This document shows positions 15,815 through 55,622 of a DNA stretch of 64,000 nt, in pieces. Both the position numbers and the translations under genes were made by a program. This DNA comes from Nothopassalora personata (taxonomy: Eukaryota; Ascomycota; Dothideomycetes; Mycosphaerellales; Mycosphaerellaceae). The notes below the pieces were generated by a model that saw only the letters and a program-made list of their open reading frames with translations, was not told the DNA's origin and did not search any database. Within the stretch, counting starts at the first letter, position 1; each line of letters begins with the position of its first letter. The stretch is from the NCBI GenBank assembly GCA_033816765.1, contig CM066287.1, forward strand, positions 6,386,001-6,450,000, read 5' to 3'.

Positions 15815-15822
15815 TCGGCAGC
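15815..15822. repeat. 8 bp target-site duplication, left copy
   Basis: TCGGCAGC, repeated exactly at 55,615-55,622 in direct orientation, immediately outside the two inverted termini. Confidence 0.8.
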
Positions 15823-15962
15823 TTACCTCAGCAAGCTCAGACGCTTCTCCTCGGCTCGGCACCCTTTAGCTCCGTTTAGCACGGTTTAGCACCGTTCAGC
15901 CAATCGGGTGATTCCGCCCCAGCGAGCCTTGGCGAAGCGTCTAAGATCGAATGGGGCGTGTT
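15823..15962 (+). repeat. Left terminal inverted repeat with internal hairpin and 10 bp array
   Basis: From outside in: TTACCTCAGCAAGC; an outer hairpin arm CTCAGACGCTTC (15,836-15,847); then an array of 10 bp units (TTTAGCTCCG, TTTAGCACGG, TTTAGCACCG, TTCAGCCAAT; 15,866-15,905); an inner inverted arm GAAGCGTCTAAG (15,934-15,945); then AATGGGGCGTGTTTTAG. This stretch still contains CA and TG, so it escaped RIP. Confidence 0.7.
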
Positions 15963-16667
15963 TTAGTATACCTTATTTTAATATAGCCTTACTACTAGAT
16001 TTCACGACGCGATAGTAACTTACTACTACCTCCGAACGAGCTCCTACAGATTTAAATAAGAGCGCCGATAGTAGAGATTACGAGGGCATTAACATCGAGA
16101 TTATATAGTAGCGCGTTATATACGAAGTACATCCTCGAATGTAAAATCTAACATCGCCTACCTCGATCGAATATCGTCCACCGGCCGAGTAGAGTACGCT
16201 ACACCTCTATAACTACTTTTATTCGATGCGCGAGGGTAAATAAGCAAGATTTACCTATAGTAAAAGCCCTATACTATAGCGAGTTAGCGCGTTAAGACCC
16301 GAAATAAGTCGAATATATACCTATTAAGTCCATTGTATAGCGCGTAATTGCCTATCGTGTCGTATACTATACCTATACCCTCTTAGGTGATTGTATGCAT
16401 CGCAGTCGCACTAGTATAGCTATGTCGTCGTAGAGCGTAGTATACGCCGTGTTTTCGACACTCTATTTACTACTATCTATACGGGTCTTAACGGGTTAGT
16501 ACCCTTTTATACCGTTTAGCTAATAAGAGCGTAGCGCTAGGTGCTATATAACGCGTTATTTATAGTAGGCGGTATATAAAGTAGTCTCTACCGGCTAGTA
16601 TCGCTAGGTATCTATCTTCGTAGCTCGAAGGCCGTCTACGCTCTCTCCGCGACGATTGCATACGATT
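15963..16667. other. RIPed 5' non-coding region of the giant element
   Basis: No ORF. It contains one copy of the internal core ACCGTTTAGCTAATAAGAGC near 16,514. Confidence 0.45.
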
Positions 16668-16671
16668 GTAT

Positions 16672-16712
16672 ATGCTTTAGCACGCTTTAGCACGCTTTAG
16701 TACGCTTCGAAC
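16672..16712 (+). promoter_or_regulatory. 10 bp motif array directly upstream of the helicase start
   Basis: Three consecutive 10 bp units, CTTTAGCACG, CTTTAGCACG and CTTTAGTACG, are followed by CTTCGAAC and the ATG. The same motif builds the terminal repeats and recurs upstream of the DUF6589-like ORF, suggesting binding sites for an element-encoded protein. Confidence 0.55.
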
Positions 16713-19700
16713 ATGCCTCTAGTAGCAAATAGGTTATCTAGAAAAGCCGATAGGAGAGGTAAGCGGGCGAAGGCGAAACGCCTAAAGCCGTACACGCTAG
16801 ATACGACGACATCCTTAGCCTCTCGTCTCTATACTGTTCGATACCGATATCCCCAAGAGCGTCTAAAGGAGGCTATAGATAAGGCTCGAGCCGAGTGCTA
16901 CGTTAATATCTAGTAGCGTGTTATCTATAATTGTCTATATAACTTATATAGATTCGAACTACATTATTAGTAGGTCCGTGTATTACGGCGTCTAATCTTT
17001 AGTAGCGGAGACACTCTATTAATCGCGCGGACTAGGTTTAGTAAGAGTATAATCTTCTATATATATAGTGTTCTTATAGACCGCATTACTATCTAGATTA
17101 TGCCGTTAGTTAAGCTTAGAGATAAGTAGTTACGTAATATTTGCTAGCTTAGCTATAGTACGCGACCTATCTTAATAGTAGAGGGTACTAAGTCGGAGGA
17201 TCAAATAATACTATAGAAGATAGCCTTAGGTTAATATACGTACGTGTTACTTAGGCCTAAGTAAGCCTCGACCGCATCTTTTCGGAAGTTATTAAAGGAC
17301 TCGATATTTACCTCTCGTATCGGACTCGTTATAATCGATAAATGCTATACTGTCCGATAGTAGAAGGACTTTAGACCGGCTTTCGTAATACTCGGCTAAC
17401 TACGAGATTAGCTACCGCGAGAAGTTTACTAGTTTACCTATTCTACTACACTCGATAAGGCTACTAAGGAGGATGTTCTCCGGAACGCTAGATTTCGGTA
17501 TCTTAGTCTATTACTATACTAGACTAAGGTAATCCGAACGTCTATTAACTGTATTAACATATCTATCTACCTACGATAGATTCCGAAGGGTAAACTTAAC
17601 TAGTAGTATTAGCTTAGGTTCTTATTAGAGTATACTATAACGGACGGTAAGGCGACACCTAATCGAATCCGTAAGGCTATTATCTTTATTAATAGAATTG
17701 GTACTATCGCGGCTACTACGGCGTTCATCGCTAATGTCTTAGTTAGGTTAACCGCTAATACCTAGCCGTAAGACCGATTTTATCGTAAGCGCGTGTCGGT
17801 TAGTTACTACGTCGCTAATGTCGTGTAGACTTTTACGTTAGTTACGGCTAAATGGGATAAGAACTTCCGGTATAACGAGTTTAAGAAAGAGAACTCTCGA
17901 ATTAGGGTAATCTTCGCTACTACTTCCCTAGGTATAGGTGTTAATATTCTAGATGTCGAGGTCGTAGTATATTAGAAGTTCCCGCTCGGTATAGATGTTA
18001 GCAATGTCTAGTAGAGGCTCGGTCGTAGTAGTCGCGGTAAGGGCCGGACGAGCATTAGTATAATATATCTACCGTACTAGGCCTTTAATTATAACGGCAT
18101 TAATCCTACTAGCGTAATAGATAGTAATAATCCTAATACGAAGAAGGCCGTATAGAAGAAGGTACGTAAGACCGTATAGAAGAATTAACTGCCTTCGTAT
18201 CGTAAGGTAGCTAAGGCTCGTACGAATGTAGCCGCCGTTATATAACTAAGCTAGTGCGAGTTTAGCGAGGAGTCCGAGGCTAGTACTAAGTCTAAAGCCG
18301 AAGTATTTAATCCGGATAATAGGCTAAAGTAGACAGCGGACGAGAGGTATAACCGTAGGCTACTACCTTTAGTATAGCGAGACATTATTAATAGCCGTTA
18401 TTATCGCTCTAGTTTCCTCCACTTCCTTAGTAAAGGGCGTATGCCGCCTAGCGAGGAAAGGCTTATTATGTTACCGCCGGACTTATATTATAATACGTGT
18501 ACGCTAGACGCGTTCCTATTGTCGACTTTTCGATTACTACCTATACTAGCTATACCTATAGCTCTACGGAAAGGTTCTCGCCCTACGATCGCATTATCGG
18601 CACTAGACGAATGGGCTTACGAGTACGCTACTAAGCTACGTCCTAATGCTATGTTCCCTATACCGCTAGATGCATTTATAGCGGATAGGATCCGCTAGGA
18701 TGTCGTTACACTATATAACGATAAGTTATATAAGTCTCTAAATACCTCGAGTAGCTAGGATTGCCTAATAGTCGATATGTTATACGAGAAGCTACTTCGT
18801 ATTACCGAGTAGAAGTACTAGGGTACATATTAATCGACATTACTAACCTAGCTTAAGTAGGTGTTCTCTATCGTCTAGTCCGTACTTATAGACCGTTTAG
18901 CGGCGCGGAAGGCTAGTTGCAATACTAGTAAGACTATATATACCGACGACGAAGACATACTATATTAGGATAATAAGGATGCTACTTAGTTATTAAGGCG
19001 TACGGAAGAGGATAGGGATAATAACCTCGTACTAGTTGCGGCTCGTAATATCCTACGGTTACGGTAAGAGCGAGAAGGTAACAATCGGTAAGTCTATAGT
19101 CTAAGTAGAGGTACGTACACGCCGTTCGTGTCGACTAGTCCTATAGCATTGCCTTCTACTATTATAACTAGTGCTACATTAACACTATGTCTAATAAATC
19201 GATTGCCTATCCGTCCGTAGTACTTACCGATTATGCCTAAGTCGAACATGCTACCGCTAGTACGAGTTTCGATACTACTAGCATTATAGACATTACTTAT
19301 AAGTGCGACTAACTATACCCTCTCTACTAAGAAGACTAGTTAAGAAGTAGATGCATTTCTTACTAATCGTAGCTCTCCTATTACTACGCCGAAGATTACT
19401 ACGTTTAGTACTAGCGATGTACCGGATCTATTTACACCGGACGAGACTAAACTCTAAGTATTGTAAGCGGCTACCGACATGTTGCCCGAGGCGAGTAGAT
19501 TAATATCTCCTACTATTATAGTATTAGACTCCTAACCTATCGTACCGGATTCGTAGGTCTTAGTACTAGACTCCTAGGATATAGTACCGGAGTCGTAGAA
19601 TATGTTACTAGAATTATAATTATAGGGCGCGACGATTAATAATATATAGCTACTTAGTATACCGAACTCCTCGCCCGTATCTACTACCGCTATTACGATA

Positions 19701-20006
19701 CTAAGTCGGCGGTCGTCTAGTGTACCGAAGCGTAAGGTCGATATAGCTCGTACGCCTAGGAAGAAAACACTAAGTCGAAAGAAAGGAAAGCGCCGAAAGC
19801 CGCTTATAGAGCGTAATGCGAATGCCGGAGTAGTTATTAAAGAGGATAAACTAGAGGATAAACTAGAGGATACACTAGATAATGTATAGATATTATAGGT
19901 AGTAGTATCTAGATCCGGTCGGAAGCGAACACTATCGTAGAAGGCGTAGAGGAGTAACTAGTATACTAATGCACTATCCGGTATTAATAGCTAAGACGAA
20001 TAGTAA
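16713..20006 (+). pseudogene. RecQ-like helicase of the giant element, RIP-inactivated
   Basis: One frame of 1,098 codons from ATG at 16,713 to TAG TAA at 20,001-20,006, with no frame change. The stops that I read are TAG or TAA, as expected from CAG, CAA or TGG. Order: basic N-terminus (MPLVANRLSRKADRRGKRAK); Walker A region ARTRFSKSIIF (expected ARTGFGKS, both Gly lost by TpG to TpA); DECH box now IIDKCYTVRQQKDFRPAF; motif IV-like IIFINRIG; motif V VIFATTSLGIGVNILDVEVVV; motif VI QQRLGRSSRGKGR. The C-terminal 600 residues hold a Cys/Leu-rich block, a Ser/Pro/Thr-rich region and a basic RKKGKRRKP tail. Motifs V and VI match RecQ/telomere-linked helicase families. It reads inward from the left terminus. 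Confidence 0.8.
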
Positions 20007-20059
20007 TGTTGTATACGTTTTATATACTATAGTTATATCGGGTCTACTCGGCGCTAGCT

Positions 20060-20460
20060 TATATACCCTATTTATACCGTTTAGAACCCTTTATAATATA
20101 GATTAGTACGGTTTAGCTAATAAGAGCGGTCGGGTGAATCCGCTCGGCCCGATATCTATAACGACATCCTCTCTCCTATAAGATATTACATCGTCGCGTA
20201 GCCTTACGATATTAAGGGTAACCTTATTACTATAACGCTACCTCTCTCGCTTATACTCGCTTATTCGCTTTAGCTTCGTTTAACACGGTTTAGCTAATAA
20301 TATCGCTCGGTATATACCGCTCGGCCCGCTGTCTTCGACAATATGTCCTCTTCCCCGTGCGATATTACATTGTCGCGTAGCCTCGTCGCTCGCTTATGTT
20401 CGCTTATAGTCGCTTTAGCATCGGCCGCTACGGTTTAGCTAATGATATCGCGTTACTAAA
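20060..20460 (+). repeat. Internal copies of the terminal core motif, ~190 bp direct repeats
   Basis: Three units each contain ACGGTTTAGCTAAT (near 20,094, 20,287 and 20,428). Two share a downstream block with CTCGGCCCG and ATATTACAT[C/T]GTCGCGTAGCC. 10 bp phased CGCTTTAGCT / TCGTTTAACA / CGGTTTAGCT units are visible near 20,268-20,300. CCGTTTAGAACCCTTTATA near 20,067 mirrors the right-side TATAAAGCGTTCTAAACCG. Confidence 0.6.
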
Positions 20461-20829
20461 GGCGCTAATAACTATCGATTAGGTAGGTAGTATTATCGGG
20501 CTAGTATTATCGAAGCGTCCTTACATAAGGTGAAGTATCGATAATAGTATATACTATACTATTATTAACTACATCTCGGACGCTCCCTAACGATAATAGA
20601 CGGCTATAACTAGATCCTACCTAAGCTACCTTCGAAAGATACCCTACCGGACGAGAAAGTAGTGCGGAATATAGTAGATAATAATATACCATTTTTATCG
20701 TTTAAGAATAGTATACCGACTAAGACGACTAGCTTTATTACTATAAGTATAGGCCTAAGCCCTACTAAGTACGGTAGTTACGCGACTCGTGTCGGAGTAA
20801 AGTAGTAGTATGTTAGTTAAAGTCGTTAA

Positions 20830-20995
20830 TAGGGTAGTAGCATTCTCTTAAACTTCTTATAGGTAGGCCGGTATATTAGGTAAACTCGTTGTCGGGGTAG
20901 TAGCATCTTCTCGAAGGTCTTTACGGACGTAGCTATATATTAGTAAAGTTGTCGTCGGGGTAGTAGCTTTGTCTTAAAGTAATTACGGATGTAGT
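20830..20995 (+). repeat. Three ~60 bp tandem repeats
   Basis: Units contain AGGGTAGTAGCATTCTCTTA, CGGGGTAGTAGCATCTTCTC and CGGGGTAGTAGCTTTGTCTT. Non-coding, inside the giant element. Confidence 0.5.
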
Positions 20996-20999
20996 AGCC

Positions 21000-21960
21000 T
21001 AGGTCCTTAAATGAACGGTATATGTTAAGCTTAGTATTATAGGCATAGATATTATCGATAGTATTCTAAACTGCCTTTAACTCCTACACCTTACGGATAA
21101 GCCTATGCTTCTTAACGCCTAGTAGGTATTAAGGCCGATCTTAATAGCCTAACCTAATACATCGTTAGGGCGGACGGTTACCTAGCTAGCTATACTTAGG
21201 TCGAAGTTTCTAGTGTCTATAATCGGCTCGGCGGTAGATAGGTTACGTATCTAGGAAGATGCGATACCCGCCCGGGAAGAAGGATTGCTAGAAGAGGAAA
21301 AGTGCGGACTTTACGCTCTATGTAACGGGATAGCTAGTCGGTCGAATAGGACGTATACGAGGAGCCTAAGGCTATAGTAGGGAAGCCTACTTACGGTATA
21401 GGAAGCTCGCATAGGTAGCGGGTAGCTACTATTGTGCCTTACTCCTTAATGAATAATATTATAAGGATTCATTATCCTTTAATACGATTTAGTACCGTTT
21501 AGCTAATAAGAACGCGCGCTAAGTCTATAATAGCGCGGATCGTATTGTTACTTTATATACGTATATAAAGTTTAGCGCGAAATCTAGGGTCTAGTTACAC
21601 GCTTTATATCGATTTAGTACCGTTTAGCTAATAAGAGCGCGCGCGCTCTTATAATACATCTCTATACTATTATAAGAGAGACGCCTTTACTCTACGGTAC
21701 CTAACTAGAGCGTAGGACTCCCGAAAGAAGGCTCTACATTACTCGCGCTTTCCTATCGATAATAGTATGCTTCCCGCTATTATAAGGTCGAGGCATATCT
21801 TTACGCTTCTTTCTTCTTTTACTTCCTCTTTTCTTTTACTTAACTTATATCCTTTTACTTAACTTATATTACTTCTAACCCGTAAGCGATCTACGACTCC
21901 GCCTCCTTTAACGCCTTAACCCTAACCCGTAAGCTATATAAGTCGATTGTTAACTATACC
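21000..21960. other. RIPed non-coding spacer with two more core-motif copies
   Basis: GATTTAGTACCGTTTAGCTAATAAGA occurs near 21,485 and again near 21,607, giving two ~120 bp direct repeats followed by GCGCGC tracts. No ORF is convincing before the polyQ gene. Confidence 0.5.
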
Positions 21961-21966
21961 GCTAAG

Positions 21967-23020
<1,054 letters not shown>

Positions 23021-23086
23021 TTTTTTTTGTTTTCTATAAGGCTTTATCGTTAGGGTGTAGTCGGGTGTCTCCTACTAGTCGGGTGT

Positions 23087-23248
23087 TATAAGGGGCGGGC
23101 CTCTATTTCTTAGTATAGGCTACGCCTATACGTTCGGATTACTTTCCGACACCTTTTCTTCGGATAGCGTATAACTTCCCCTTTCTTCTATATTGAACTT
23201 ATTATAAACTTTATAGAACTTTAGTATATACGTCGTTCATCCGTAACA
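23087..23248 (+). repeat. Gypsy-A 5' LTR
   Basis: 162 bp, aligned with 51,770-51,931; differences are mainly RIP-type transitions. Confidence 0.85.
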
Positions 23249-25420: not shown

Positions 25421-25616
25421 TGTTAAGGGATGTCGTAATATATAGTACGCCTACGACCTACTAGTCGTAGATGAACTAATTCTTGCCTTTTATTTAAGAC
25501 GCATCGCGCGTCGTAAGGTGTACGTATACATGTTACGTGCGGCTTAGTAGCCGGTCGCGACTATATATTACATGTAAGGCTATATATAAGGGTTAGCTAC
25601 TAGGCTACCCCTTACA
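25421..25616 (-). repeat. Gypsy-B 3' LTR
   Basis: 196 bp; ends retain TG...CA. Confidence 0.85.
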
Positions 25617-25903
25617 ATTGCCTCCCCTCCCGTGCGAGCTGTCCTTAGCTCGCTAGTTACTACGTAGAGGTTCCTACGTACTTCTAGAACTATAGTTGCT
25701 ATGCGGCCTATATACGGGTTACGTACGTATCGTTATGTAGGTATAGGTAAGTAAGGCTTAGTTACTATACCGACGTAGCTAGTTAGGGGTATAAAACTCT
25801 AGCCTAACCTAGCACGTTCCCTAGCGCACTACCTCCGTTATACTACTACTACGTACCTATACCGTACCCTTACCGTAAGCGCCTTACTAGCATTATTATT
25901 ATT

Positions 25904-26935
25904 ATGTCTAATGGGCCCTCCTCGCCTCCGTCCTCCGGCCGCTCCGCCTCCTTCCGTAGTATTAGTAGCGATAGTACTACTAGCGCCTTAGAAGACAAGC
26001 GCCGCTAGGCGGCTCTAGTACGCGACGTACCTAGAACGCCTAGTAGTCGTAAGCGACTAGTATCCCCCTCGTAGCTACTAACGCCCTCGCCCGCTACTAA
26101 GCTCTCGTAGAGGATTAATATATACATACGGTACCTCCTATACTTCGTTAAGGGTAAGTCTCTACGCGCGCCGCCTACGATTCGTATACTAACTACTTAC
26201 TAGACGAAGCCGATAACTATAATGGTGTTACTACCAGCGAGCTCTTAAAGAAGTGCGGCCGCTATAGGCGTAATAGACATAAGTACGCGCCTAATACTAG
26301 CTACGCTATCGCCTCGCTAGTAAGCCGCCTACGCGCCGCGCGCTCCTAGCGCGACTTCCTTACGGCTATAATAGGCTAGGCGCCTATAGACCTCTAGTAG
26401 TAGGAGCTAGTAGAGTAGATCCGCCTATATACCTAGCTAGGTAACGACATTACGGAGGTAAGTCGCTACTTCGCTCCTACGAGTCGACTACTACTCGCGG
26501 GGGGGGCTCTAGTGCGTCTCCTATACTTCGGCTAACCCTTTCTATAGGCTATTAGGCAGTTTAATGCCTATAAGTATAAGCGTGCCGGGGAGACCCGTAT
26601 ACGTGCCCCCGCCGCCGCTACTACTACCGCCGTAGCCCTCGCGCTCTAGTAGGAGTAGAACCGCGCCCTTAATGGGCTGTTCGAACTCGGCCGCGCCGTA
26701 AGTCGTATGTTCCTCGTATACGTGTACCCTACTAACCGTAGTCCTAGTTCCTATAGGCGTAGAATATCGATACTACCGCCGCCGACTAGGCATTCCTACC
26801 TAAGTTACTACGCGACAACGACAACTAAGGCGCTTACCTTATACGCTACTCGCGGGCTCCTCGCCTACTACTACTCTACGTAGCCCCTAGTAGGCGCGCT
26901 GCTCTTTAGCTTTTATTCTATTTATAGTTAAGAAA
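25904..26935 (+). pseudogene. Antisense ORF in Gypsy-B between integrase and 3' LTR
   Basis: ATG at 25,904 opens MSNGPSSPPSSGRSASFRSI, and a Ser/Arg-rich stretch runs to about 26,150. After one frame change it continues as LLDEADNYNGVTTSELLKKC, YAPNTSYAIASLVSRLRAAR and DFLTAIIGQAPIDLQQQELV, to about 26,930. It is opposite to gag-pol. No domain is recognised. It ends next to the tail-to-tail integrase frame. Confidence 0.5.
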
Positions 26936-26954
26936 AGTTTTATTTATACTCTAG

Positions 26955-29735
26955 TACTTCTATACTAGTCTTATTTACTTCTCCTTAACGCCTTATAGTC
27001 GGCTACTATACGATCCGCATTCGCGAGGCCCTCCGCCGGTTCCTAGCTATTATACTCCTCTAGCTAGTCCTTCTACTAGACTAGATACTATAGCTTACCC
27101 TTACGCTTACGCCTATCTAGTACTGCCTCTACCTTATACTCTCCGTCCTTATTAGCTAGAGGGGGTACGGATCTATCCTTATCGCTACCGATATACGGCT
27201 CAAGAAGAGAGACATAGAAGACGTTATAGAGCCTTAAGTCGGCTAGTAGCGCTAGGCGGTACGCCTACGAACCGATAGCGTCCGTAATGCGGTATAGGCC
27301 GATGAACTTCGGACCTATCTTCTTCTTTAGTACTACTAACTTAAGGTTCTTCGTTAATAATAGGACTAAGTTACCTACGCGGTAGGTCTTAGCTTAGTAG
27401 GTCTTATTATAGTAGCGAGCCTAGCTTTCTACTATAGCCTTCTATCGCTCCTCGAGTATAGTACGTAGTTTTCGCATGCGACTCGCAGCTATTACCGCTA
27501 CTAGTACTTCCCCCCCTAGGTCTCGTCTCGAGATCTAGTTAGTATAGGGGTAATCTTAGGTCGCTAACCGTACGCTATCTCGAACGGACTCATCCGTAGT
27601 GTTAGGTAGATACTATTATTAGCTACGAATTTAGTAACTATAAGCCACTTAGCCCACTTAGTTTAATTGTTACTATAGTAATAACGAAGATATTATTCGA
27701 GGGTTTAGTTTACCCTCTTAGTTTAGCCGTTAGTCTAAGGGTAAAAGGCCGTAGATAGCTTACGCTTTATACGCGCCTCGAAGTAGAAGTTACTCTAAAA
27801 CTAACTAGTAAAGACCGGACCTCGGTCGCTTACTATGCCTAAAGGGATACTATAGTATCGCACGACTTCGTCTCGTAGGAGCCTCGTAAGCTCTACGGCT
27901 ATATAAGTCTTCGTCGTCGGGATGTATAAGCTCATTTTTAAGTAGCGATCGACTATTACTAGGATCGCATTATACACGTAACCGGCTCGCGTACTTAGAG
28001 GTAGGTCCGTAATAAAATCTATAGTGATTTCCTACTACGGCCGCTCCGGTCTAGGAAGCGGTTATAGCCTAGTATAGGGTCGATAGCGTTTAGCCTTCGA
28101 ACCCTAGTAGGTTCTATAGGCTTAGACGTATTGCTTTACGTCCGTACTAAGTAAGTCCTACTAATAATTACGTCGTAATAGCTCTTTAGTCTTAGTCCTT
28201 CTAAAGTAACCCGCGAGGACGTCGTCGTAGTGTATACAAATTAGATGCGACCTAATTGCGTAATCCCTAGGTACTACGATCGCGTCTCCGTAGTATATAA
28301 GGTTATTCTTTACATACTATCCCTTAGCGTCCCTCGCGCTTAGCGCCTACGCTAAGTATGCGATATACTAGTCGTCTCGCTACTACGCGATCTTTATTAA
28401 GAGTAGGATTAACTTACCCGTCGAGCTATAAGCTTAACCCTATATTACTATAGCGTACACTACTACTAGTAACGACGGCTTATCTTAATAGGGAAGGTTA
28501 CCTCTCCGTACTACTATTACCGCGCCTATGTCGCCCTATATTGCCTCGTAGGTAGTAAGTACGCGCTTTACCGTCGGCTCGCTTATCCCTTCTAGAGACT
28601 CCTTCTAGAAAGATAGCTTACTTTATAAGGTAGGTAGTAAGTTCGAAGTTTATTACGTTATAGCTACGTAGTTACTACGTCTCGAAGGCGCGTCGGCTAG
28701 GTTAGTCTTACCCGGCCGATACTCTACTATAAAATTAAAAGACTATAGGAACGTAGCCTATCGAGCTTACCGCCCATTTAGCTACTTTACTATTATAAAG
28801 CCCTATAGGTTAGCGTAGTCGACTAGTACTCGTACCGTATACGTAGCGCCCTCTAAGTATAGCCTCTAATACTTAAAAGCCTTAACTACTATAAGTAGCT
28901 CCTAATCGTGCGTCTCGTAGTTATACTCGGCTAGTATTATCTTACGTAAATAGAAGGCAATTGGATGCTACTTAGTACTAAACAATTAGGATATAATACC
29001 TACGATCGCGAAACCTAAGGTATCCGTCTCGACTCGCGTACGTAGCGTAGGATCGAAGTGCCTAAGTATTAGTACACCTAAGAATCCGGCCTTAAGCTAT
29101 CGAAACGCCTACTCTTCGCTTAAGGTCCACGTAAGAGGGCCGTGCTTCTTACCGTCCTTAGATCCCTTTAGTAGGTCCGTTAGGGGCTTGTAGACCCTTA
29201 AGTATCCTTCTATAAAACGCCGGTAGAAGTTGTAAAACCTAAGGAAGGACTAGACCTTATAAAAGGTCGTAGGTGTAGGCTATTCCTCGATAGCGGCTAC
29301 CCTACTCCTATCTATCGACACGCCTACGGCGCTTACGACAAACCTAAGGAACTCTATACTCTCCTAGAAGAAGTAGTACTTCTTAGGGTTTACGAATAGA
29401 GTAAACTTCCGTAGCCTCGTAAGCACTTCACGCACGGCTCGTACGTATACCTTACGCGTCTCGCTATAGATAAGGATATTATCTAGGTAGACTACGTAAA
29501 TGTTATTAACTAAGCCGGTTAGCGCCTTGTTAATATACCCTTAAAAGGTTACTAGTGCGTTAGTTAACCCGAACGGTATTACTAGGTACTTGTAGTATCC
29601 GTATCGCGTACGAAACGCTATCTTCCACTTATCGCCTCGCTTAATAGAGATACGATAGTAGGCGTCCTTTAAATCGATTGTAGTAAAGAACCTAGAACCT
29701 AATAGCCTATCTAGCGTCTCGCTAATTAGGGGTAG
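26955..29735 (-). pseudogene. Gypsy-B RT (3' part), RNase H, integrase, chromodomain
   Basis: The RT fragment at 29,541-29,735 reads SRFFTTIDLKDAYYRISI and VIPFGLTNALVTF. Downstream on the minus strand come RNase H and integrase blocks with many TAG/TAA. The C-terminus is a chromodomain (EYKVEAVLDRRKRKGKLQYL ... EEYNSQEPAEGL) ending at about 26,960. Confidence 0.7.
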
Positions 29736-29921
29736 TGTCACGGGGTGGCCTTGACCTTGGACCTTTCGCCGGCTTAACCGCGGACCTTCCGGATCGGGTT
29801 AGCGCGGCTTGGCACGAGATCGACCTTGCTTCTCTCTTCTCTCTCGTTCTTAGACTCTTCGTAGATTGTATTATTCACGACTTGACTCCTACACTCTCCG
29901 GATCTCATATCGCCCGTGTCA
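29736..29921 (+). repeat. Gypsy-C 5' LTR
   Basis: 186 bp, starts TGTCACGGGGTGGCC and ends CGCCCGTGTCA. Confidence 0.92.
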
Positions 29922-30058
29922 TTACAATCTACCGCTCATAAGCTGCACGCGTCCGCAAGGATCCGTACAGCGCGCTCAAACTAACAGCGCATTGTCAGCT
30001 CGAGCAACGCGCTCTAGCACCAGACCCGAGTGGTAGCGATTGTCAACATCCCACCATC

Positions 30059-32104
30059 ATGGAAGGCGAACAAGCAGTTCCAAACCCTCCTCCTCCGCAG
30101 CGAGGCCGACGACAGTCTCGAGGCGAGGACGAGGAGCGACCCGACTTACCAAGAGACCGATCACCACGAGAGCGATCCTCTATGCCACCCACCACGCGAC
30201 TTCGGCGCCAACTCGACAGTGCTGACGACGCAGTTACACCGAAAGTAACAGGCAACTTCAATCTCGACGAGCCGACGCCAGGGCGCCCGCTCAAGCAGAA
30301 GGGAACTGTCGTCGCCGACACGCAAGAGACGATTGGCCGACAGTCAGAATCAGCATCGGCAGCACCGGCTCCGAAGCCAGCGAAGAAGTACCCTCTGACA
30401 GAGGAGCAGCGCGAAGAGTATGCGCAGAGGAACTCCACGGACCGCCTCACGTACAACAAGGACGAGGGAACCGTGGCTAGACAGACAGAGCACTGCGACC
30501 TCGGCTGGGCAGTGCCACGCGACATTACCACCTACAAGAATGCCGAAGGTCACAGACTGCTACAGGCCCGGTACAAGGTCAACAACTTCAAGTTCGGCAA
30601 CGCGAAGGACCTCAAGCTGGTCGTCAACCAGGGCAATGAGGAACACCCGGATGCCGGTGCCAAACGCTTCCTAGACGTACTCGACAACGTCAACCTGATT
30701 ATCGCCAGAAGCGAGGAGGCCGTTGAGGAACACGATGCGCTCATCGAGCAGCACGAAGATACTATCGCCCAACAGGACAAGACTATCACCCAGCAAGAGA
30801 AGGTGATCACGCGCTTGGAAAAGAAGGAAAAGACTTCAACAAAGATGATAGAAGAAGCCATCGACAAGTTCGCCGCGTACAAGACTGAGCTGGCGGCCCT
30901 TCGACAGGACAAGCAAGACCTAGAGCAGCGTCTCAAGGCCATGGAGGCAAAGGAAACAGAAGCTGACGACAGTGAGAAGGAGGGTGCAACACTTGCACGA
31001 CTAGGCAAGTACCTCCAGGATACCGACGGCGACGATTCCGACGTCGAGTCGGAAGCCAATCTCAGACGTCGGTACACCACCCACACCACGAAGGTCCCGC
31101 TGCGCAAGGCGGCCGGATCAGCTGGTGGTACACCAATGCCGAAGCCGCGGCCACGAGGCGTCTCCCCAGCAGGTTCCGGTATCAGCGCTATACTCGGTCG
31201 GAAGCGCAGCTCACATGCTCAAGAACTCATCGACGACGATGATGATGCTCGGCCGACCTGTTCAGGCTCCGAAGCACGCGCCAGCGGCATCAAGGCGCCG
31301 GATGCATTCTCCGGCGAGGCAGGCAAGGAACAGAAGCCTTACCTCGAGTGGAAGCAGAAGATGAAGTACTACCTACGTATGGGTTGCAAGGGCTTCAGCG
31401 ACGAAGACTTGAAAGCTACTGTCATCAACTGCACCACTGGATTCGCCTACAGTGTCCTCGAACCTATCGAGTCCACACTGGCTACGGCGGATCACGTCTT
31501 CGAGGTGCTCGACGAGGCCTGCGGCGATAAGCATACGCGCACCACGAAGCGTGCAGAGTATCAGTACCTCAAGCAGGGTGACGGCGAGGTTTTCAGCAAG
31601 TTCTGGGCCAAGTTCGTGTCATATCTGCCATACATCTCACACGACAAGGATGACCCAGATGATTTGCCCGAGCAGATGCGGGCAAAGCTCAGCAAGGCTT
31701 ACCGCGACTGCATCCGTGGCGAGCGTTTCAAGGATATCATGGCTATGAAGGACAAGCTCCACATGATCGAGGCTGACTTCCTTCACGATAAGGCAGGCGG
31801 CAGTAGCGGCGGAGGTCGTCGCCATGGCGGAACTGGTGGCGACGGCAACGACAAGTCACCTCTCCAGAAAGCCAATGATGCACTCAAGAACGGCTATGAT
31901 TGGGACAAGGCCAAGGATGGCGGTCTCTCATCTTTCCGGCCCATTACCCAGAAGGAGTTCGACGACCGCACTAAGTGCTTTGCTTGCAAGAAGGAGGGAT
32001 GCCGCAAGACCCTTCCAACATGCCCGTATGCACCATACAAGAAGGCCTCGCGTCGTCCGAACAACAGCACTCTCGACGTGCCTGGTGTTGAGGAAAAAGT
32101 CTAA
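30059..32104 (+). CDS. gag: Gypsy-C Gag
   Basis: Structural capsid protein, 681 aa, starting MEGEQAVPNPPPPQRGRRQS 137 bp after the 5' LTR. Residues ~1-110 are Pro/Arg/Glu-rich. A coiled coil spans ~220-310 (IEQHEDTIAQQDKTITQQEK). The retrotransposon capsid-type domain spans ~420-570 (PYLEWKQKMKYYLRMGCKGF, later YQYLKQGDGEVFSKFWAKFV). A Cys-rich end, CFACKKEGCRKTLPTCPY, is probably a variant zinc knuckle for RNA binding. There is no internal stop and no RIP damage. It ends GAG GAA AAA GTC TAA at a likely frameshift site that feeds into pol. Confidence 0.88.
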   Translation: MEGEQAVPNPPPPQRGRRQSRGEDEERPDLPRDRSPRERSSMPPTTRLRRQLDSADDAVTPKVTGNFNLDEPTPGRPLKQKGTVVADTQETIGRQSESASAAPAPKPAKKYPLTEEQREEYAQRNSTDRLTYNKDEGTVARQTEHCDLGWAVPRDITTYKNAEGHRLLQARYKVNNFKFGNAKDLKLVVNQGNEEHPDAGAKRFLDVLDNVNLIIARSEEAVEEHDALIEQHEDTIAQQDKTITQQEKVITRLEKKEKTSTKMIEEAIDKFAAYKTELAALRQDKQDLEQRLKAMEAKETEADDSEKEGATLARLGKYLQDTDGDDSDVESEANLRRRYTTHTTKVPLRKAAGSAGGTPMPKPRPRGVSPAGSGISAILGRKRSSHAQELIDDDDDARPTCSGSEARASGIKAPDAFSGEAGKEQKPYLEWKQKMKYYLRMGCKGFSDEDLKATVINCTTGFAYSVLEPIESTLATADHVFEVLDEACGDKHTRTTKRAEYQYLKQGDGEVFSKFWAKFVSYLPYISHDKDDPDDLPEQMRAKLSKAYRDCIRGERFKDIMAMKDKLHMIEADFLHDKAGGSSGGGRRHGGTGGDGNDKSPLQKANDALKNGYDWDKAKDGGLSSFRPITQKEFDDRTKCFACKKEGCRKTLPTCPYAPYKKASRRPNNSTLDVPGVEEKV

Positions 32105-32133
32105 CCTCTGAGCGTACGCACAACACTCAGAGG
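32086..32133 (+). promoter_or_regulatory. Candidate -1 ribosomal frameshift signal (gag/pol)
   Basis: The last gag codons GAG GAA AAA GTC TAA hold an A5 run. Slipping back one base there enters the pol frame (AGT CTA ACC TCT GAG), which is open into the protease. Six bases downstream an 8 bp perfect stem CCTCTGAG/CTCAGAGG (32,105-32,112 with 32,126-32,133, 13 nt loop) could act as the stimulator. Confidence 0.6.
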
Positions 32134-35100
32134 GCTGACATTCCCCAACGTGCAACGTCCGGTAAGGACCCTCCCGTAGATTCCAACCTCTACGAGCATC
32201 TCGCCTATCCTCGCCTGCAGGCAACAGCATCAGTGTTTGTACCGTCGGCTCGTCCAGCTGCCGCTTCAACAGTGCAGCTGGGCGGACGACGGCAACCTAT
32301 CGCCCTAACTGCTGACCTGCCAACGGTTTGTTCTCTCTCGGTTTCACCGCACATGAGCCTCCCACCCATATCGAAGCATGTCGTGCTTTGCGGCATGGTC
32401 GGAGGGCAGCTCGTACGCTGTATGCTCGACACAGGTTGTACCTCTCTCTTTGTCCATGAGAGGTTTGCGAAACTAAATCTACAGCGCAAGCGCCTGCCAG
32501 AAGCGCTGCCATATACTGGCTCGAAGGGCAGCACTGCGGGACTGATCACACAGATTGCCAGCATTCCAGACATCGACTTCAACGGCCAGCACGACAGCTT
32601 CAATGCCTGGGTCGCTGATCTCGGGCAATACGACCTCATCCTCGGCATGCCATGGTTTGAGTCCAACCTTCCACACATCGACTTCGTCACGCGCACGCTT
32701 ACCTTCGACAGCGGGATCTCCGCTCGCTGCGAGACCAAGTCCGATCCCAAACCTGGCACACCGCGTTTCGCCTCTGAGCCGGTGGTGGAAGGCCCTCTCG
32801 AAGACCTTCCAGACATCAACATCATAACTGTGGGAGAAGCGCAGTCTGCAGTGGACGAGGGCCAAGAAGCATACCTCGTCTGGGACTACGATGACACGTC
32901 TGACACAGCAGCAGTGCTCGACGACGTCGGATTGCACATCTGCGCCATGAACCCAGATGACCTGGAGCGCTACATGAAGGGCAAAGAGGAGGTCGACGCT
33001 AAGCAGCTCTTGCCACCTGATTTCCACCAGCGCGTCCAGGCATTCAACCCCGAGCTTGCGAAGTCACTTCCGCCACACAGGGAGGGGGACCTTGCGATCG
33101 ATTTCATCCCTGGTGCTAAGCTGCCTTTCGTTAAGCCCCGGCCGGCAGGACGAGATGAGCTGATTGTGACCAAAAAGCACATCACGGATCTCGCGTCCAT
33201 CGGCTACGTTCGTCCATCGACATCACGGGTCGCATCACCGCTTCTCATTGTTAAGAAGCCTGGTGGTGGACTCCGGGTGTGCGTGGACTACCGAGCCATC
33301 AACGAGATCACCATCAAGAACAGGTATCCCATACCTCAGATACGTGAAACTCTAGCGCGCCTGTCCAAGGCCAAGATGTTCACTATCCTCGATATCATTG
33401 CGGCATTCAACCAGCTCCGTATCAAAGCCGGTGACGAATGGAAGACTGCTTTCACTACGCGCTATGGAACATACGAGTACTTGGTCGTGCCTTTTGGGCT
33501 ATGTAACGCACCAGCGGCTTTCCAAGCCTACATCAATTCCGCACTGCACGACTATCTCGATGATTTCTGCACGGCGTATTTGGACGACACTATCGTGTAC
33601 ACAGAGCCGCCGGAGCAGGGAGGTTTCGACGCGCTTCGCAAGCTCCACGTCGAGCACGTCAACAAGGTCCTTGACAAGCTTATCGAAGCCCGCCTGCCCT
33701 GCGACATACTGAAGTGCCGTTTCTTCCAGACCGAAGTCAAGTTCTTAGGGATCATCATCACGGCGACCGGGCTGAAGATGGATCCCAAGAAAGTTCAAGC
33801 GATCCAAGAGTGGGCGACTCCAAGCAATGTTACTGACGTCCTAGCATTCCTAGGGTTGTGCAACTTCTATCGCAGATTCATCGCCGAATTCGCTACTATA
33901 GCATTCGCCCTTACATGCTTGACCCGTGGCGCCAACAGCAAGGACCCAAAGCACCGTCCGGTCTGGCGCTGGACTGCAGAGTGCCAGGAGGCTTTCGATG
34001 CTCTGAAGCTGGCTTTTACCAAGGCACCAGTACTTAAGCATTTCGATCCGGACCTCCCAAGCACTGTCGAATGCGACGCCTCTGACACGGTTACAACTGG
34101 AGTCCTGTCCCAGCCAGATCCAGACGACGGCTGGGCACTCAAACCAGTTGCTTTCTACTCTACAAAGATGATTCCAGCGAAATGCAATTACGAGATCTAC
34201 GACAAGGAACTTATGGCAATCGTGCACGCATTCGAGGAATGGCGGCCCGAGCTTATGTCTTGCGATCCAGCTACACCAATCAAGGTGCTATCCGACCACC
34301 GCGGCTTGGAGTACTTTATGACTACCAAGCAGCTTAACAGACGTCAAGCCCGGTGGGCGGAGTTCCTGTCTGCTTTCAACTTCAAGATCACGTACAGACC
34401 TGGCAAAGACAACGTGAAGGCCGACTGCCTTACACGACGATCCCAGGACCAGGACAAGTCCGATGATCTGCGCAACCGCCGCCAAGTTCTGCTCAAGGAG
34501 GACAATCTCAGCGACGAGGTGCGTGCGACACTGCCGCAGGTCGCTTGTCTCGAGGTACCCGATCCAGCAGCAACAGCCAAGCGTCAGTACGAGCTCGCCA
34601 TAGCTGCACTGGAAGTCCTAGACGGCGCCACTCCAGGCGATCCTTCCATTGAGGAACAGATCCAGCTTGCGTACGCCAAAGACGAGCTCGCTTGTGACAT
34701 TCGCGAAGCAATCAAGAAGGATCTGCCCAAGCTGAAGGACGCACGCGTATCTATCACCGATTGCCGCATCGAACATGACACGATCTTCGTGCGCGACAAG
34801 GTGTATGTACCGGATTCTGAGGACTTGCGAGGCGAAGTCATGCGCCAGCACCACAACACTCTCCTCACCGGTCATCCAGGCCGCGAGAAGACGTATGAAC
34901 TGATCGCCCGCGAGTACTGGTGGCCGGGGATGTTCAAGGATGTTCGCAGGTACACAGATGCATGTCACGTCTGCACCCGCATACGCGCTTTCACTCGAGC
35001 ATATTCAGGAGGTTTGCGGCAGCTGCCAGTACCACAAGGAGCATACCGCGAAGTCACGATGGACTATGTGGTTGAGCTGCCAGCTAGCACATCAGCCGAG

Positions 35101-36339: not shown

Positions 36340-36588
36340 TGAACTGCTCGGACACGGCCTTCAATGCGTGTGTAAGCACCGACTGTAGCCTCTCGCTGTT
36401 ACAGCACGGCCTTACTGAAGCACGCACACTGAAGCACCGGTCCGCGGTATCTACACGCACCGCTCGAGCCGACCATGCTACACATCCCTTACACGCCAGA
36501 CGAGGCCGCTGTCGCATTGGTTACATACTGTTTGATTTTCTTTTTACGCACGTCGCAGGCGCTCGTGGCCATTTTGGAGGGGGGGTAC

Positions 36589-36774
36589 TGTCACGGGGTG
36601 GCCTTGACCTTGGACCTTTCGCCGGCTTAACCGCGGACCTTCCGGATCGGGTTAGCGCGGCTTGGCACGAGATCGACCTTGCTTCTCTCTTCTCTCTCGT
36701 TCTTAGACTCTTCGTAGATTGTATTATTCACGACTTGACTCCTACACTCTCCGGATCTCATATCGCCCGTGTCA
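36589..36774 (+). repeat. Gypsy-C 3' LTR
   Basis: 186 bp, no difference from the 5' LTR seen by eye. Confidence 0.92.
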
Positions 36775-36779
36775 GGTAG

Positions 36780-38720: not shown

Positions 38721-38939
38721 GGCACGCTTACGTCCCGTAAGATCTCTAACTATTTAATCTCCCTCTATATCCCCTTCTCTTTAACCTCTACCCGAAGGGC
38801 ATCCCTCCTTACGACTAAGGCTACACGCCTCGCTTATTACTAGGCCCTAGGGCTTAGGGGAGCCGTAGGCGTAGCGCTACTATCGTTACGTTCGGACTCT
38901 ATAGCGTATATAGATTGTAACGAAGAGAAGAATTAGAAC

Positions 38940-39135
38940 TATCAAGGGATGTCGTAATGTATAGTACGCCTACGACCTACTAGTCGTAGATGAACTAATT
39001 CTTGCCTTTTATTTAAGACGCATCGCGCGTCGTAAGGTGTACGTATGCGTATTACGTACGGCTTAGTAGCCGGTCGCGACCGTATATTATATATAAGGCT
39101 ACATGTAAGGGTTAGCTACTAGGCTACCCCTTATA
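38940..39135 (-). repeat. Gypsy-B 5' LTR
   Basis: 196 bp; the terminal TG and CA have become TA by RIP. Confidence 0.85.
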
Positions 39136-48565: not shown

Positions 48566-48576
48566 CCTAAGGGTCT

Positions 48577-50667: not shown

Positions 50668-51265
50668 TTTTATAATAGGGCCCGTAGTACATACGTCTAC
50701 TTAAAGGTGAGCTAAGCATTAGCTATAGTGCCTATAACCTTAGCGGCGACCGTACTAAAAGAATCGGTAAGCGCGTATAAAGAGGCGGGGTCCGTAGAAA
50801 CTTACCGGGAGAGTATACTAGCACGCTAGAGAGGCTTTAAAGCCTTCTAGGCTTTAAGGACGGCGCGGAGCTTAGTACGAGCGTCGTCGCTAAAAGACTG
50901 TAAGCCGGTAGAAAAGTCGCGGAGGACGCTAGGGAGGATACTTACGCACGGTTCTAGTTAGTAGCGCGGGTCTACTTAGTATAGGCGGCGTAGGCGAGCT
51001 CCGGCCTAAAACGCGCGGTTAGCGATAATTTTCCCTCGGGGTTCGCGCGGTATATACATGTCCTCGCAATACTTACGATTAGTATTATAGGCCTAGTAGG
51101 CGCGCGCGGTTACGCCCTAATGATAATTAGCGGACCCCGATAAGAATAGGACGAGGACCGGTACTTATATGCTAGGAGACGTAGTCTACGCTAGTAGAGG
51201 CGTAGGGGACGTAGTAGATGCGGCGTTAGGCTATTTTATGCTAGGCTCCGGTTAGAATGTTTTAG
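50668..51265 (-). pseudogene. Antisense ORF in Gypsy-A between integrase and 3' LTR
   Basis: On the strand opposite to gag-pol, one frame of ~195 codons stays open except for TAG/TAA. It reads PEPSIKQPNAASTTSPT near its start, later YCEDMYIPREPRGKIIANRA, VSILPSVLRDFSTGLQSF and SLYALTDSFSTVAAKVIGTI. No domain is recognised; the chain is Ala/Ser/Leu-rich. Comparable antisense ORFs lie in the same place in Gypsy-B and Gypsy-D. Confidence 0.5.
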
Positions 51266-51769
51266 TCTCCGTAGGAATTCATTCGGACTTACTTAATAGT
51301 ATTAATAGGAGATATGGTAGTAGTGGTTTCTATTTACGGCATGCTATTAGTATCTATCGGAACCCGTAGGGAAAATGTCGTCTCCCTAAGCGATAGGTAT
51401 AAGATACGCGAATATACCCCTAAGGCTAGAGACGCTTAGCTAGGGGGGAGGGGGAGGGGCCACTTACGCGTATAGTTAGTAATAAGAAAAAGAAAGAAAA
51501 GAAAAAAGAAAAAAAAGAGAACGAGAACCTAAAGATATGTTCTAGGCTCCTATTATTTACATATAACAATAGCTATTGTTACTAGGTAGACAATAGTAAA
51601 CCTTATACTTACCTAGGTAATAACACTTCGTCTTAGCGTCGGCGGGGCTAGACAATAAGGAAGAGTGGCTCGGGCACTTCCTATTACGAGCCTAATAAAA
51701 ACACCTAAGATAATAGGCTCTAGGGCGGAGCCATAACTAGGGGCGGCGGAGGAGGAAGGGGGGGAGTAG

Positions 51770-51931
51770 TATAAGGGGCGGGCCCCTGTTTCTTAGCATA
51801 GGCTACGCCTATACGTTTGGATTGCTTTCCGACACCTTTTCTTCGGACAGCGTGTAACTTCTCCTTTCTTCTATATCGAACTTATTATAAACTTTATAGA
51901 ACTTTAGTGTATACGTCGTTTACCCGTAATA
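51770..51931 (+). repeat. Gypsy-A 3' LTR
   Basis: 162 bp partner of the 5' LTR; the terminal CA has become TA by RIP. Confidence 0.85.
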
Positions 51932-52004
51932 GGTGTCTATAATAAACTTCTTCTCGGTACCGCTAATGTCGTCTTATACCTCGTCTTATGTACTTTATTG
52001 TCTT

Positions 52005-53909
52005 TTAATCGTTAAGATACGTTAGGTCTATAATCTCTACGTCCTCTATAGCCTTAAGTGCTTTAATATCGATAAAGTCCGATGGCATATCGTCTATGGT
52101 AGTATCTAGTAGCTATCGGATTAGCCTTAAGTTAAACTTAGTAATACGCGAGCCTACTACTCGCATACCTTCTCGACGAATGTCGAAAGAGTCGTAATAC
52201 TACTTAGGAGAATATAACGCCTAGTCTCCTCAAATAGCCCCGAGCTTACTATTAAATAACATCTTCGCCCGAGTAAACATATTAAGACGGGCGTCTCGAA
52301 TAGTATAATTGTCTAGCATATAATTACCGAATTCCTACTCGACGCTAGTACGGAGATAGCGAATCTAACGATTTAACCGACAAATGCGATTAAATATCGT
52401 ATCTATATCGTAAGTCGAGTTCTTAAAGTAGTTAAGTTCGGTCTTGTAGCTACTATTTAAGTGTTCGAGACTTAGGTCGATAGGCTTAAAGGTTATCGCC
52501 TTGCCTTTCTAGTTAACGAGATCGGATACTAGTATTAATCGCTATAACTCCGGCGTGTATATAGCGTCCGAGAGAAGCTATCGATAATATAGTATCTCGC
52601 GGCCGTAGTTATACTACGATACCCCAAAAAAGACTAGTATTAATAGGTCTACTGCCCGCCGTAGTATACCGATGTTAGTATACTTAACTACATACCGTAT
52701 CGTTAATAGTGACTCTACCTCCTATAATAGCCGACACATAGTACGGAATTCGATATCGTTATGTCTAACACCGGAGACGGTTCTCTCTTCCTATACGTTC
52801 CGCGTAAAAGCCTCTAGTCGTATCTCCTTAACGATCTCGTTAAACATCGCGGCAGTTAAGTTAGACCGTAGTATTTTATCTACGGATGCGAAACTATTAA
52901 TATTAAGCTAGCTACTATCGATTTAGGACATGTTAGTATTAACTCCTACCCGTAGTATAATCTTACGTCGCTCTAGTACTTTATAAAACAATAATAAGAC
53001 CCGCGAGTTAAAGCCGTGCCGGACTAGAGGCTCTATAAGGTAATACTTAATATTCTCGCGACTGTATTAGGTCCGGTTCTAGGTAGTACAATTAGAGGAG
53101 ATAGTATAATAATAATGCTCTTTACGAGATGGAGGGTCCTAGTACGTGCGGACGATAGTATAGAGTAGATTCATCTAGATATAGAACTATGCTAGTACCC
53201 TAAGGAGCTATTCTCTACGATCGAATCGGCCTTAGGTATGCTACTACTAAACCTTAGCTACTCGAATGCGCTCCGATATAAGCTAATTACTATAGACCAG
53301 CTAAAGTCGCTTACTAAATACATCCTTAACGGACGACCTTAGATTAGCGTTAGACTTAAAGCCTAGTTCCACTTTTATAAGTCGCTCGTGTACCCGTATA
53401 TTGCCTTCGGTAGTGCCTTCGTCCTCGGGAATAGAGCTACACTATAGATAATCCGTCGGTCTAGTATTAGTAAGTATATCTAGCTAAGGTATTACTAGGT
53501 AGGTGTAGAGTATCTCCGGATTTACGATCGCCTTAAGCTTTAGTATCTCGTTAATCGGCTTATTATAGATAGCCTTAATAGCATTAGTAATAATAGCTCT
53601 TAATATCTCCCGCCCCGTAGTATCGTCTTATAGGCTAGGCGTATCGTAGATGTCGTCTACATCGAGGGAAGTAGACGGAGTATACATATCTTATGTTAGG
53701 CTAGAAGCTAGAATTGTAGAATAATAGACGACTTAAGTAGTAGTTATAGTACGCTACGTTACCTTATGCCCTAATACCTTATAGCGGGTAGGATCCTTAA
53801 AGTTTATATTATCGTAGTTAAGTACCGTCTACTTATCGTAGCCTATAGTACGGAGGTGGATCTAGATATACGTAAGCTACGGATTCGATATAATAACGGC
53901 TTCGTGCAT
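52005..53909 (-). pseudogene. DUF6589-like protein of the giant element, core ORF, RIPed
   Basis: From ATG at 53,909 (MHEAVIISNP) one frame of 635 codons runs to TAA at 52,005, interrupted only by TAG/TAA. Blocks: NYDNINFKDPTRYKVLGHKV; AQFYIQMNLLYTIVRTYQDP; YLIEPLVRHGFNSRVLLLFY; KYTNIGILRRAVDLLILVFF; then the C-terminal SYNYGREILYYR-like, SDLVN(W)KGKAITFKPIDLSL and EHLNSSYKTELNYFKNSTYD. I recall this order as the fungal DUF6589 family, whose role is unknown to me. It faces the helicase gene. It lies at the position where a transposase would be expected, but no catalytic triad can be assigned. The true stop may lie slightly further if TAA was CAA. Confidence 0.65.
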
Positions 53910-53930
53910 CGAGAGTAGGGAAGTTAGGTC

Positions 53931-54200
53931 TAAAGTATACTTTAGTATGCTAAAGCATACTAAAGCGTAGAGTCCTATCTACGAACGCGTCTCGATTCGC
54001 TTCGTAAATAGAGGATTACTATAGCTATAAAGCGTTCTAAACCGTGTAGTTTAATCTATAGAAGCGCCTCGATGTAACGCCTAGCTACTAGCTTTACTAC
54101 TTAAAGAGGACTATAGTTATAAAGCGTTCTAAACCGTACATCCTACCGTCTCGATACTAGTGTCACACCGTAGTAATTAAGCGTTCTAAACCGTGTAAGG
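53931..54200 (-). promoter_or_regulatory. 10 bp motif array and three subterminal repeats upstream of the DUF6589-like core ORF
   Basis: Read on the minus strand, CGCTTTAGTATGCTTTAGCA lies ~30 bp before the ATG, the same 10 bp phased unit as before the helicase. Further out, AAGCGTTCTAAACCGT (plus strand) occurs three times, near 54,037, 54,123 and 54,180, two of them following TATAA or TATA. The left-side relative is CCGTTTAGAACCCTTTATA at 20,067. Confidence 0.5.
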
Positions 54201-55300
54201 CGTAGCGAGCATATAAATCGGTAGCTATATATATATAGATATAAGGCAAGACGGCGATTAAGCATTATAAAGACGTAGTAGCTATTTAATAGCACGCCTA
54301 TAGCATACTATTACGTATATTTATAGACTTGTCCTACGCACCTTACTATGTTCTATAACACTAGTTAATAACCGATTACTAGTAGTATAGCTCTAATAGA
54401 TACCTAGCCTATATAGTACATTAACATACCGTCGCTTAGTACTAGATCCTTATAGATATATCGACACGAGCGAATAGAGAGTGTTAGATCGTTTAGCTAT
54501 TCTCGAATGTAATACCGACGCTATAATAAAGAACATACGCTATTACACTAACCGGTCTAGCGCGTTACTACGAAATTGGCTCGTCTAGTATAATCGGAAG
54601 TTACTTATAAAATGCAGTAGCATTTAATGCTAGATAGGAGTATTAGTTTAGATAATCTTATATACTACCGTAAAATCTATGTTATTTAAACTGTCGATGT
54701 TAGTACCGCCGGTTAACTAAAAGGTACCGAACGGATAATAGCCTACTAGACTATTAAGCTCCTCTATAGCGCAAAAGATCGGGGTCTAATTACGGCGGGA
54801 CCCTCGTCTATATAGTATAGCGTTAATCGACCGATGTTTAATTGAACGACGTAATACTTTCCGACGTAACTCCGTAGTACTATAGTACCTTAACTTAAGC
54901 GATGCGCTATAGCTCGAGGTACTAGGCGCTACGCCTACCTAGGCCTATAGGAATTTATAAAGGCTCTAGTTATAGCTACGTAAGAGGTTTACGATAGACT
55001 ATAACTTCTCCTACGCCGGTATACTATCGTCCTACCGTCGTGTGTACCTCCTCGTTAGTCTAGTCGGTCCGCGTGCTACCTATGTTTATATCGACGTCGG
55101 GCGTAGGCGCGGGCGTACTAGTATACTTAGAGGGAATCCGATATAATCCTCCTCTTTATCGCTATCTAGAGGGTTAATGTCGACGTCGGAGTAGCCCTCG
55201 GATAATCCTTCTAACTCTACGTCTTCGAATGCGTGTAATAAGGAGTAGTGTCGCGCGGACGGTAATTGTAGGACGTTCTAATAGGTAGTGGACGCTATTA
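54200..55300 (-). pseudogene. N-terminal DUF6589-like segment of the giant element, RIPed
   Basis: On the minus strand one frame reads AFEDVELEGLSEGYSDVDIN (acidic), then LRRKVLRRSIKHRSINAILY, AIEELNSLVGYYPFGTFQLT and SIYLQGSSTKRRYVNVLYRL, then YTTSNRLLTSVIEHSKVRR, again broken by TAG/TAA. The last blocks resemble the N-terminal half of DUF6589 proteins. Either this and the ORF at 53,909-52,005 are two exons of one gene, or two separate genes with the repeat array as promoter between them. Start about 55,300, not fixed. Confidence 0.5.
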
Positions 55301-55433
55301 TTAATTCAATTGAAAGTGCCGAGCGTGCGCTATCGAATGTAGTAGTTATTAAGGCGGTAGAGTAACGTAGTAATAGAGATGTATGCCTTTAAATGTAATA
55401 GTGCTTATTTATATATAGGGCTAAATTCGTATG

Positions 55434-55614
55434 CACTAAAACAGCCCCATTTAGTCTCAGACTCGCCGCGCGAATTGGCACTCCTAGCCCTCTAATTGGC
55501 TAAACGGTGCAGAACCGTGCTTAACGGAGCTAAAGCGAGCTTAAGCGAGCCTAGCGCGTGCGCTAGGCGAAGCCAAAGCCAATTCCTGCGGCGAGTCTGA
55601 GTTTACTGAGGTAA
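55434..55614 (-). repeat. Right terminal inverted repeat with internal hairpin and 10 bp array
   Basis: Read inward: TTACCTCAGTAAACTCAGAC; an outer arm (55,578-55,601) whose inverted partner at 55,456-55,479 matches in 22 of 24 bases; between them a 10 bp phased array (GCTCGCTTTA, GCTCCGTTAA, GCACGGTTCT, GCACCGTTTA, GCCAAT). RIP-free, like the left end. Confidence 0.7.
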
Positions 55615-55622
55615 TCGGCAGC
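55615..55622. repeat. 8 bp target-site duplication, right copy
   Basis: TCGGCAGC, identical to 15,815-15,822. Confidence 0.8.

Follow-up and report, generated by a model that had tools for sequence, protein, structure and literature searches.

What kind of mobile element brings a RecQ-like helicase together with a protein of the Pfam family DUF6589, and what might each of the two contribute? The question is raised by a stretch of 64,000 nucleotides (henceforth, the window) from the fungus Nothopassalora personata (assembly GCA_033816765.1, 54.5 Mb in 40 contigs; contig CM066287.1, C1:6386001-6450000 in the coordinates used here), in which an element bounded by inverted repeats occupies positions 15823-55614. 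We propose, with a probability of roughly 85%, that it is a fungal cut-and-paste DNA transposon: its DUF6589 protein would be a DDE transposase, and its helicase would assist at the excision break or at the transposon ends, for example in gap repair. The features observed are inverted ends, target duplications of strictly 8 bp, a convergent pair of genes that both show codon-phase bias, internally deleted copies and mutation resembling repeat-induced point mutation (RIP).

Both ends read TTACCTCAGyAArCTCAGAC inward, with 18 of 20 positions identical: the left terminal inverted repeat (TTACCTCAGCAAGCTCAGAC, 15823-15842, plus strand), on the helicase side, has the C-G form, and the right one (TTACCTCAGTAAACTCAGAC, 55595-55614, minus strand), on the DUF6589 side, the T-A form. 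Directly outside lie two exact copies of an 8-bp target-site duplication, TCGGCAGC, at 15815-15822 and 55615-55622; the inverted ends and the flanking repeat that an earlier, sequence-only reading of the window had described are thus both in place. Are these ends a family property? Allowing up to two mismatches, the end pattern occurs 156 times in the assembly (76 forward, 80 reverse), and its reversed control not at all. When ends are paired by hand according to orientation and distance and the flanks of 36 pairs are read, 28 show an exact 8-bp duplication and 31 one with at most one mismatch; mismatched pairs, as a control, yield 0/1,260. No pair has an exact duplication of 6, 7, 9 or 10 bp, one has it at 5 bp, and five of the 36 lack the 8-bp duplication. 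The 31 duplications (28 exact, three with one mismatch) are all different 8-mers with little base preference. A chance origin of the ends is ruled out by the two controls. Three further gene-bearing copies with one located end each (C4:2243458, C10:1839193, C12:2306078) stand outside the 36 pairs.

One of the five pairs without the duplication, C5:4980770-5010221, is a palindrome with both ends of the DUF6589 type, whose outer flanks, across the 14 bases read, are each other's exact reverse complement: a rearrangement or an assembly artefact.

The core of the window copy consists of 15823-23091 and 51932-55614, and the earlier claim of a 10.9-kb element, 39.8 kb with its insertions, is right, because this core comes to 10,952 bases and its four long blocks align at 95-96% with a 12.2-kb copy. 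Two compact copies carry an exact duplication and both genes, C4:20581-31752 (11,172 bp) and C10:2585306-2597517 (12,212 bp); compared as two blocks, the window core aligns at 77-94% with the former and at about 95-96% with the latter; the window copy and the diverged C4 copy stand for two subfamilies.

The two genes face each other, and both are in ruins. The helicase gene (16749-18986, plus strand, reading inward from the left) is broken by 43 in-frame TAG/TAA stops; of two full-length relatives, one matches the whole stretch and the other 16974-18719. Both relatives match the NCBIfam RecQ subfamily model under its cut-off (about 110 bits versus 219.8), and one of them (P0042) matches WRN, BLM and RecQ5 chains in the PDB. 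The DUF6589 gene, on the minus strand, comprises an N-terminal part (54324-54998, 13 in-frame stops) and a C-terminal part (52017-53861, 33 in-frame stops) with the putative DDE catalytic region; its Pfam domain match, at 52326-53468, scored 137.5 and 134.5 bits in two scans. Between the parts, at about 53.86-54.26 kb, there is no codon-phase signal. Of all the stops in the two genes (46 of them in DUF6589), a single one is neither TAG nor TAA. A RecQ-like helicase at the left and a DUF6589-like gene reading inward from the right had both been called from the letters alone, and both genes are where they were said to be; what falls away is their openness. The 1,098-codon and 635-codon frames arise only when TAA and TAG are read through, and no open reading frame of at least 150 codons is listed in the core.

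The decay is RIP-like: the composite RIP index runs from 1.34 to 4.05 in the ten 1-kb bins lying wholly inside the core, and is -0.44 and 0.36 in the two edge bins that take in flank. It is also family-wide. Stops interrupt 20 of the assembly's 21 DUF6589 matches, including all 14 that span at least 300 of 410 positions, and 34 of its 37 helicase matches; the near-complete copies found are all mutationally broken. A degenerate DUF6589-like relic at C6:1356744-1357046 (L027) gives a match without stops, with no convergent helicase match on its contig.

If the near-complete copies are all broken, how can one tell that both genes belong to the element? Of the 28 pairs whose duplication is exact, seven match both genes, seven match pieces of the helicase only (C5:1798209, C6:3400738, C5:700623, C7:2425907, C9:358927, C7:473204, C4:2930755), 14 match neither, and none matches DUF6589 alone. 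Five of the seven with both genes retain at least 300 of 410 DUF6589 positions (the window copy, C4:20581, C10:2585306, C7:4155479, C10:2067828); C2:2703680 retains 150, and C11:1262485 has 73, which is under the family cut-off. Counted over the assembly, a helicase match in convergent orientation lies no more than 64 kb from 17 of the 21 DUF6589 matches (that of C2:2721463 lies in a different end pair) and no more than 50 kb from 12 of the 14 longer ones (two share one helicase), these being raw counts; of the two exceptions among the 14, one is a palindrome arm and the other belongs to a copy whose contig, 14 kb long, stops short.

Codon phase speaks to the same point. Between the window and C4 copies, differences are in excess at third codon positions over the helicase (17.0-18.6 kb, p 0.005 to 1.2e-6, uncorrected) and over DUF6589 (52.26-53.86 and 54.26-55.06 kb, p 0.003 to 3.4e-10, uncorrected), with no excess at the element ends or at 53.86-54.26 kb. 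The third-position excess in both genes suggests selection on both proteins during the divergence of the subfamilies. RIP, through its action on codon make-up, may contribute to the excess, because transitions account for a fraction of 0.63-0.85 of the differences in these bins. Together with the pair counts, the bias supports the earlier proposal that the helicase and the DUF6589 protein are the element's own machinery.

A more distant witness is a diverged pair on C11, whose helicase has 34% identity with the window copy over 391 of 687 positions and whose DUF6589 has 25% with the window copy and 28% with the C4 copy. A distance of 20.1 kb separates the two genes, which converge as they do in the main family; against a paralogous C1 stretch they fall inside an apparent 25.8-kb insertion (left flank, L054 to base 566; right flank, from C11:1450950). 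Its ends, read by eye, are imperfect inverted repeats beginning TGC; the far part of the C1 stretch is a high-copy repeat, and the comparison disclosed no 8-bp duplication around the pair. We regard it as an old second family, and it is the sole evidence here for co-occurrence of helicase and DUF6589 beyond the main family.

What is DUF6589? Its predicted structure combines an RNase H-like core with a helical insertion ahead of a putative catalytic glutamate; the top 14 VIA-align rows for this fold are all DDE transposases or RAG1, with Hermes (hAT) and the P element best. Foldseek with the same predicted fold returned nothing significant, and a sequence comparison with the PDB no match at E up to 1. 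The alignment has conserved acidic residues at D19 (10/10), D186 (34/34) and E397 (38/38; counts are of rows with any residue at that position), with the D/D/E candidates assigned by fold order. A DDE transposase with an RNase H-like fold and a conserved D/D/E is accordingly what the structural model supports: a comparison of the predicted fold with RNase H-like transposases, suggested at the outset, puts DDE transposases and RAG1 at the top, and the suspicion that DUF6589 hides a nuclease gains support from it. A search with a full-length DUF6589 protein added two further proteins; the three named sources of relatives are all fungal. Among the matches listed, within a length range, a precomputed helicase or XPG domain is found in none of at least 40 DUF6589 proteins. 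Viral relatives were considered and rejected: 21 stretches of viral contigs fitted a DUF6589 pattern, none of them a relative, and a BFVD fold search gave nothing at E up to 0.001.

The fold and motifs suggest a mechanism in which the DUF6589 protein would bind the inverted ends, excise the element and insert it with an 8-bp stagger. The helicase may then act at the excision break or the transposon ends, possibly by promoting template-copied gap repair, a more tentative assignment than that of the transposase. Such repair would restore a copy of the element at the donor site, and its abortion would leave internally deleted copies. In Drosophila, gap repair after P-element excision suffers when BLM, HELQ or FANCM is missing, and in the absence of BLM repair synthesis is shorter and deletions arise, flanking ones included (PMC8951532). 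Internally deleted copies are many: element sequence covers 13 of the 15 short copies (between 218 bp and 3.7 kb) in full, mostly as two ends joined, and the other two over fractions of 0.84 and 0.47. They are compatible with aborted gap repair, short of proof. An internally deleted copy of 1,229 bp occupies three sites (C1:3696785, C9:434137, C12:2108488), an amplified non-autonomous form.

To what known family might the element belong? AcademH, reportedly described by Kojima in 2020, comprises DNA transposons of the Academ superfamily that encode a helicase and occur in animals and fungi. The element could be an AcademH or a member of a sister lineage, with DUF6589 being the described Academ transposase under a Pfam name and the mechanism unchanged; we regard this as a serious prospect, at somewhat less than even odds. 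A helicase beside the transposase is the shared feature, RecQ-like in the present case; AcademH has low-copy members in Ascomycota (PMC10799480), and Academ is counted among the superfamilies with a DDD/E transposase (PMC9587614). Against it stands the duplication, reported as 9 or 10 bp for AcademH (PMC10045372): 28 of our 36 pairs are exact at 8 bp and none at 9 or 10. A bolder proposal is that DUF6589 defines a separate eukaryotic DDE superfamily with strict 8-bp duplications, with an obligatory RecQ-like helicase partner that repairs and so re-copies the donor site, and with a convergent gene order that predates the split of two families whose identity, read from mutated copies, is now about 25-28% for DUF6589 and 34% for the helicase; this we advance tentatively and would rather doubt than assert. 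An 8-bp duplication is also usual in hAT, P and Zisupton/Dileera transposons (PMC12730594, PMC7776569), and the nearest structural matches of the predicted fold are Hermes and the P element, which share with it a DDE/RNase H-like core interrupted by a helical domain. That the element is a hAT, P or KDZ (Zisupton-like) transposon, strongly diverged and equipped with an acquired helicase, is nevertheless unlikely: several superfamilies have 8-bp duplications and a helical insertion, and for 24 DUF6589 proteins no Pfam model of hAT (transposase or dimerisation), P (THAP or P-element) or KDZ is listed at E up to 5, the HMMER filters dropping most matches above about 0.1. We know of no helicase gene in the P element or hAT. 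The P element is further marked by a GTP-binding insertion; for DUF6589 a helical insertion is predicted. The KDZ elements of PMC12730594, which share 8-bp duplications and occurrence in fungi, differ further in carrying TET/JBP genes. Kolobok offers another comparison.

Kolobok transposons duplicate TTAA, and the 31 different 8-mers here contain no fixed TTAA. PMC9587614 describes KolobokH, a DNA transposon confined to fungi that, like the present element, has a RecQ helicase; there it lies downstream of the transposase domain, here on the opposite strand, an arrangement shared with Kolobok-1_CCri of a red alga, whose RecQ helicase is on the complementary strand. Helicase-encoding DNA transposons are thus already known, and with AcademH and KolobokH as close precedents the statement that no described fungal family has this pairing is not confirmed. 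Among the papers listed for such a family there was no candidate beyond AcademH and Kolobok, and the open-licence papers searched yielded none naming DUF6589.

Two other explanations demote one of the proteins. The helicase might be a passenger outside the mechanism, for instance a telomere-linked RecQ gene trapped between the ends: such genes are reported from several fungi (PMC4522978, PMC4994206), and short copies without helicase occur (though helpers could provide it in trans). Its position and orientation are, however, equal in both subfamilies, with third-position bias; the diverged C11 pair keeps the convergent order; and six of the seven both-gene copies with exact duplications are over 160 kb away from any contig end (the seventh, C4:20581, is at 21 kb). 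A passenger is decidedly improbable. That DUF6589 is an accessory protein and the true transposase lies elsewhere is hardly to be believed. The place for it would be the middle segment (20475-23086), which is element-specific (it is found in element copies, plus one 123-bp piece at C4:716826) and the least diverged part: over 20.2-23.0 kb the subfamilies differ at 9-32 positions per 400 bases, versus 60-101 in the gene regions. Yet it has no codon-phase signal, two plus-strand frames scanned there gave no Pfam match, and it is DUF6589 that has a transposase-like predicted fold. The missing phase signal and the absence of a Pfam match in those two frames also speak against a third gene in this segment, and what was once read there as a polyQ protein is a tract of about 59 TAG units, (TAG)59, at 22220-22396.

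With the cut-and-paste transposon as the favored reading, a Pfam family of unknown function acquires a testable one, that of a DDE transposase. DUF6589 is tied to defined ends and a fixed 8-bp duplication, and fungal genomes can therefore be annotated for the family and its short copies. The element is also a further case of a DNA transposon with its own RecQ-type helicase, and poses a testable question: do such helicases drive gap repair, and hence a gain in copy number after cut-and-paste excision?

The rest of the window copy is foreign to the element. A mass of long terminal repeat (LTR)-type retrotransposon sequence at 23087-51931, with direct repeats of about 160 bp (23087-23246 and 51770-51929), is flanked by the 5-bp duplication GGTGT (23082-23086 and 51932-51936). 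Within it lies a second-level element, 25425-39133, with 190-bp direct repeats (25425-25614 and 38944-39133), and within that, on the plus strand, a third and innermost LTR retrotransposon, 29729-36774, whose 193-bp LTRs are 99% alike and which encodes reverse transcriptase, RNase H, integrase and a Tf2-1-like SH3 domain. Free of RIP-like bias and nested among RIP-mutated elements, it is a recent insertion. A Starship was considered: the 12 of 63 long frames that were scanned gave no match to a DUF3435 tyrosine recombinase. Four end pairs elsewhere with exact 8-bp duplications, 26-41 kb long (C9:1003646-1043660, C10:36992-78013, C4:3962317-3988640, C4:3150604-3185951), have no helicase or DUF6589 match; their interiors are candidates for nested insertions or cargo.

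Next to the left end are 4.2 copies of a 10-bp subterminal repeat, GCACCGTTTA (15859-15900), and 15864-15970 is similar (74%), in inverted orientation, to the opposite end of the C4 copy. The element's neighbors are a Dna2-like gene (10148-13915) and a TCP-1 chaperonin gene (56250-57869), both on the minus strand. Outside the element, at 7076-7962, a RIP-mutated stretch holds an inverted repeat with 238-bp arms, 97% complementary, and 411 bases between them.
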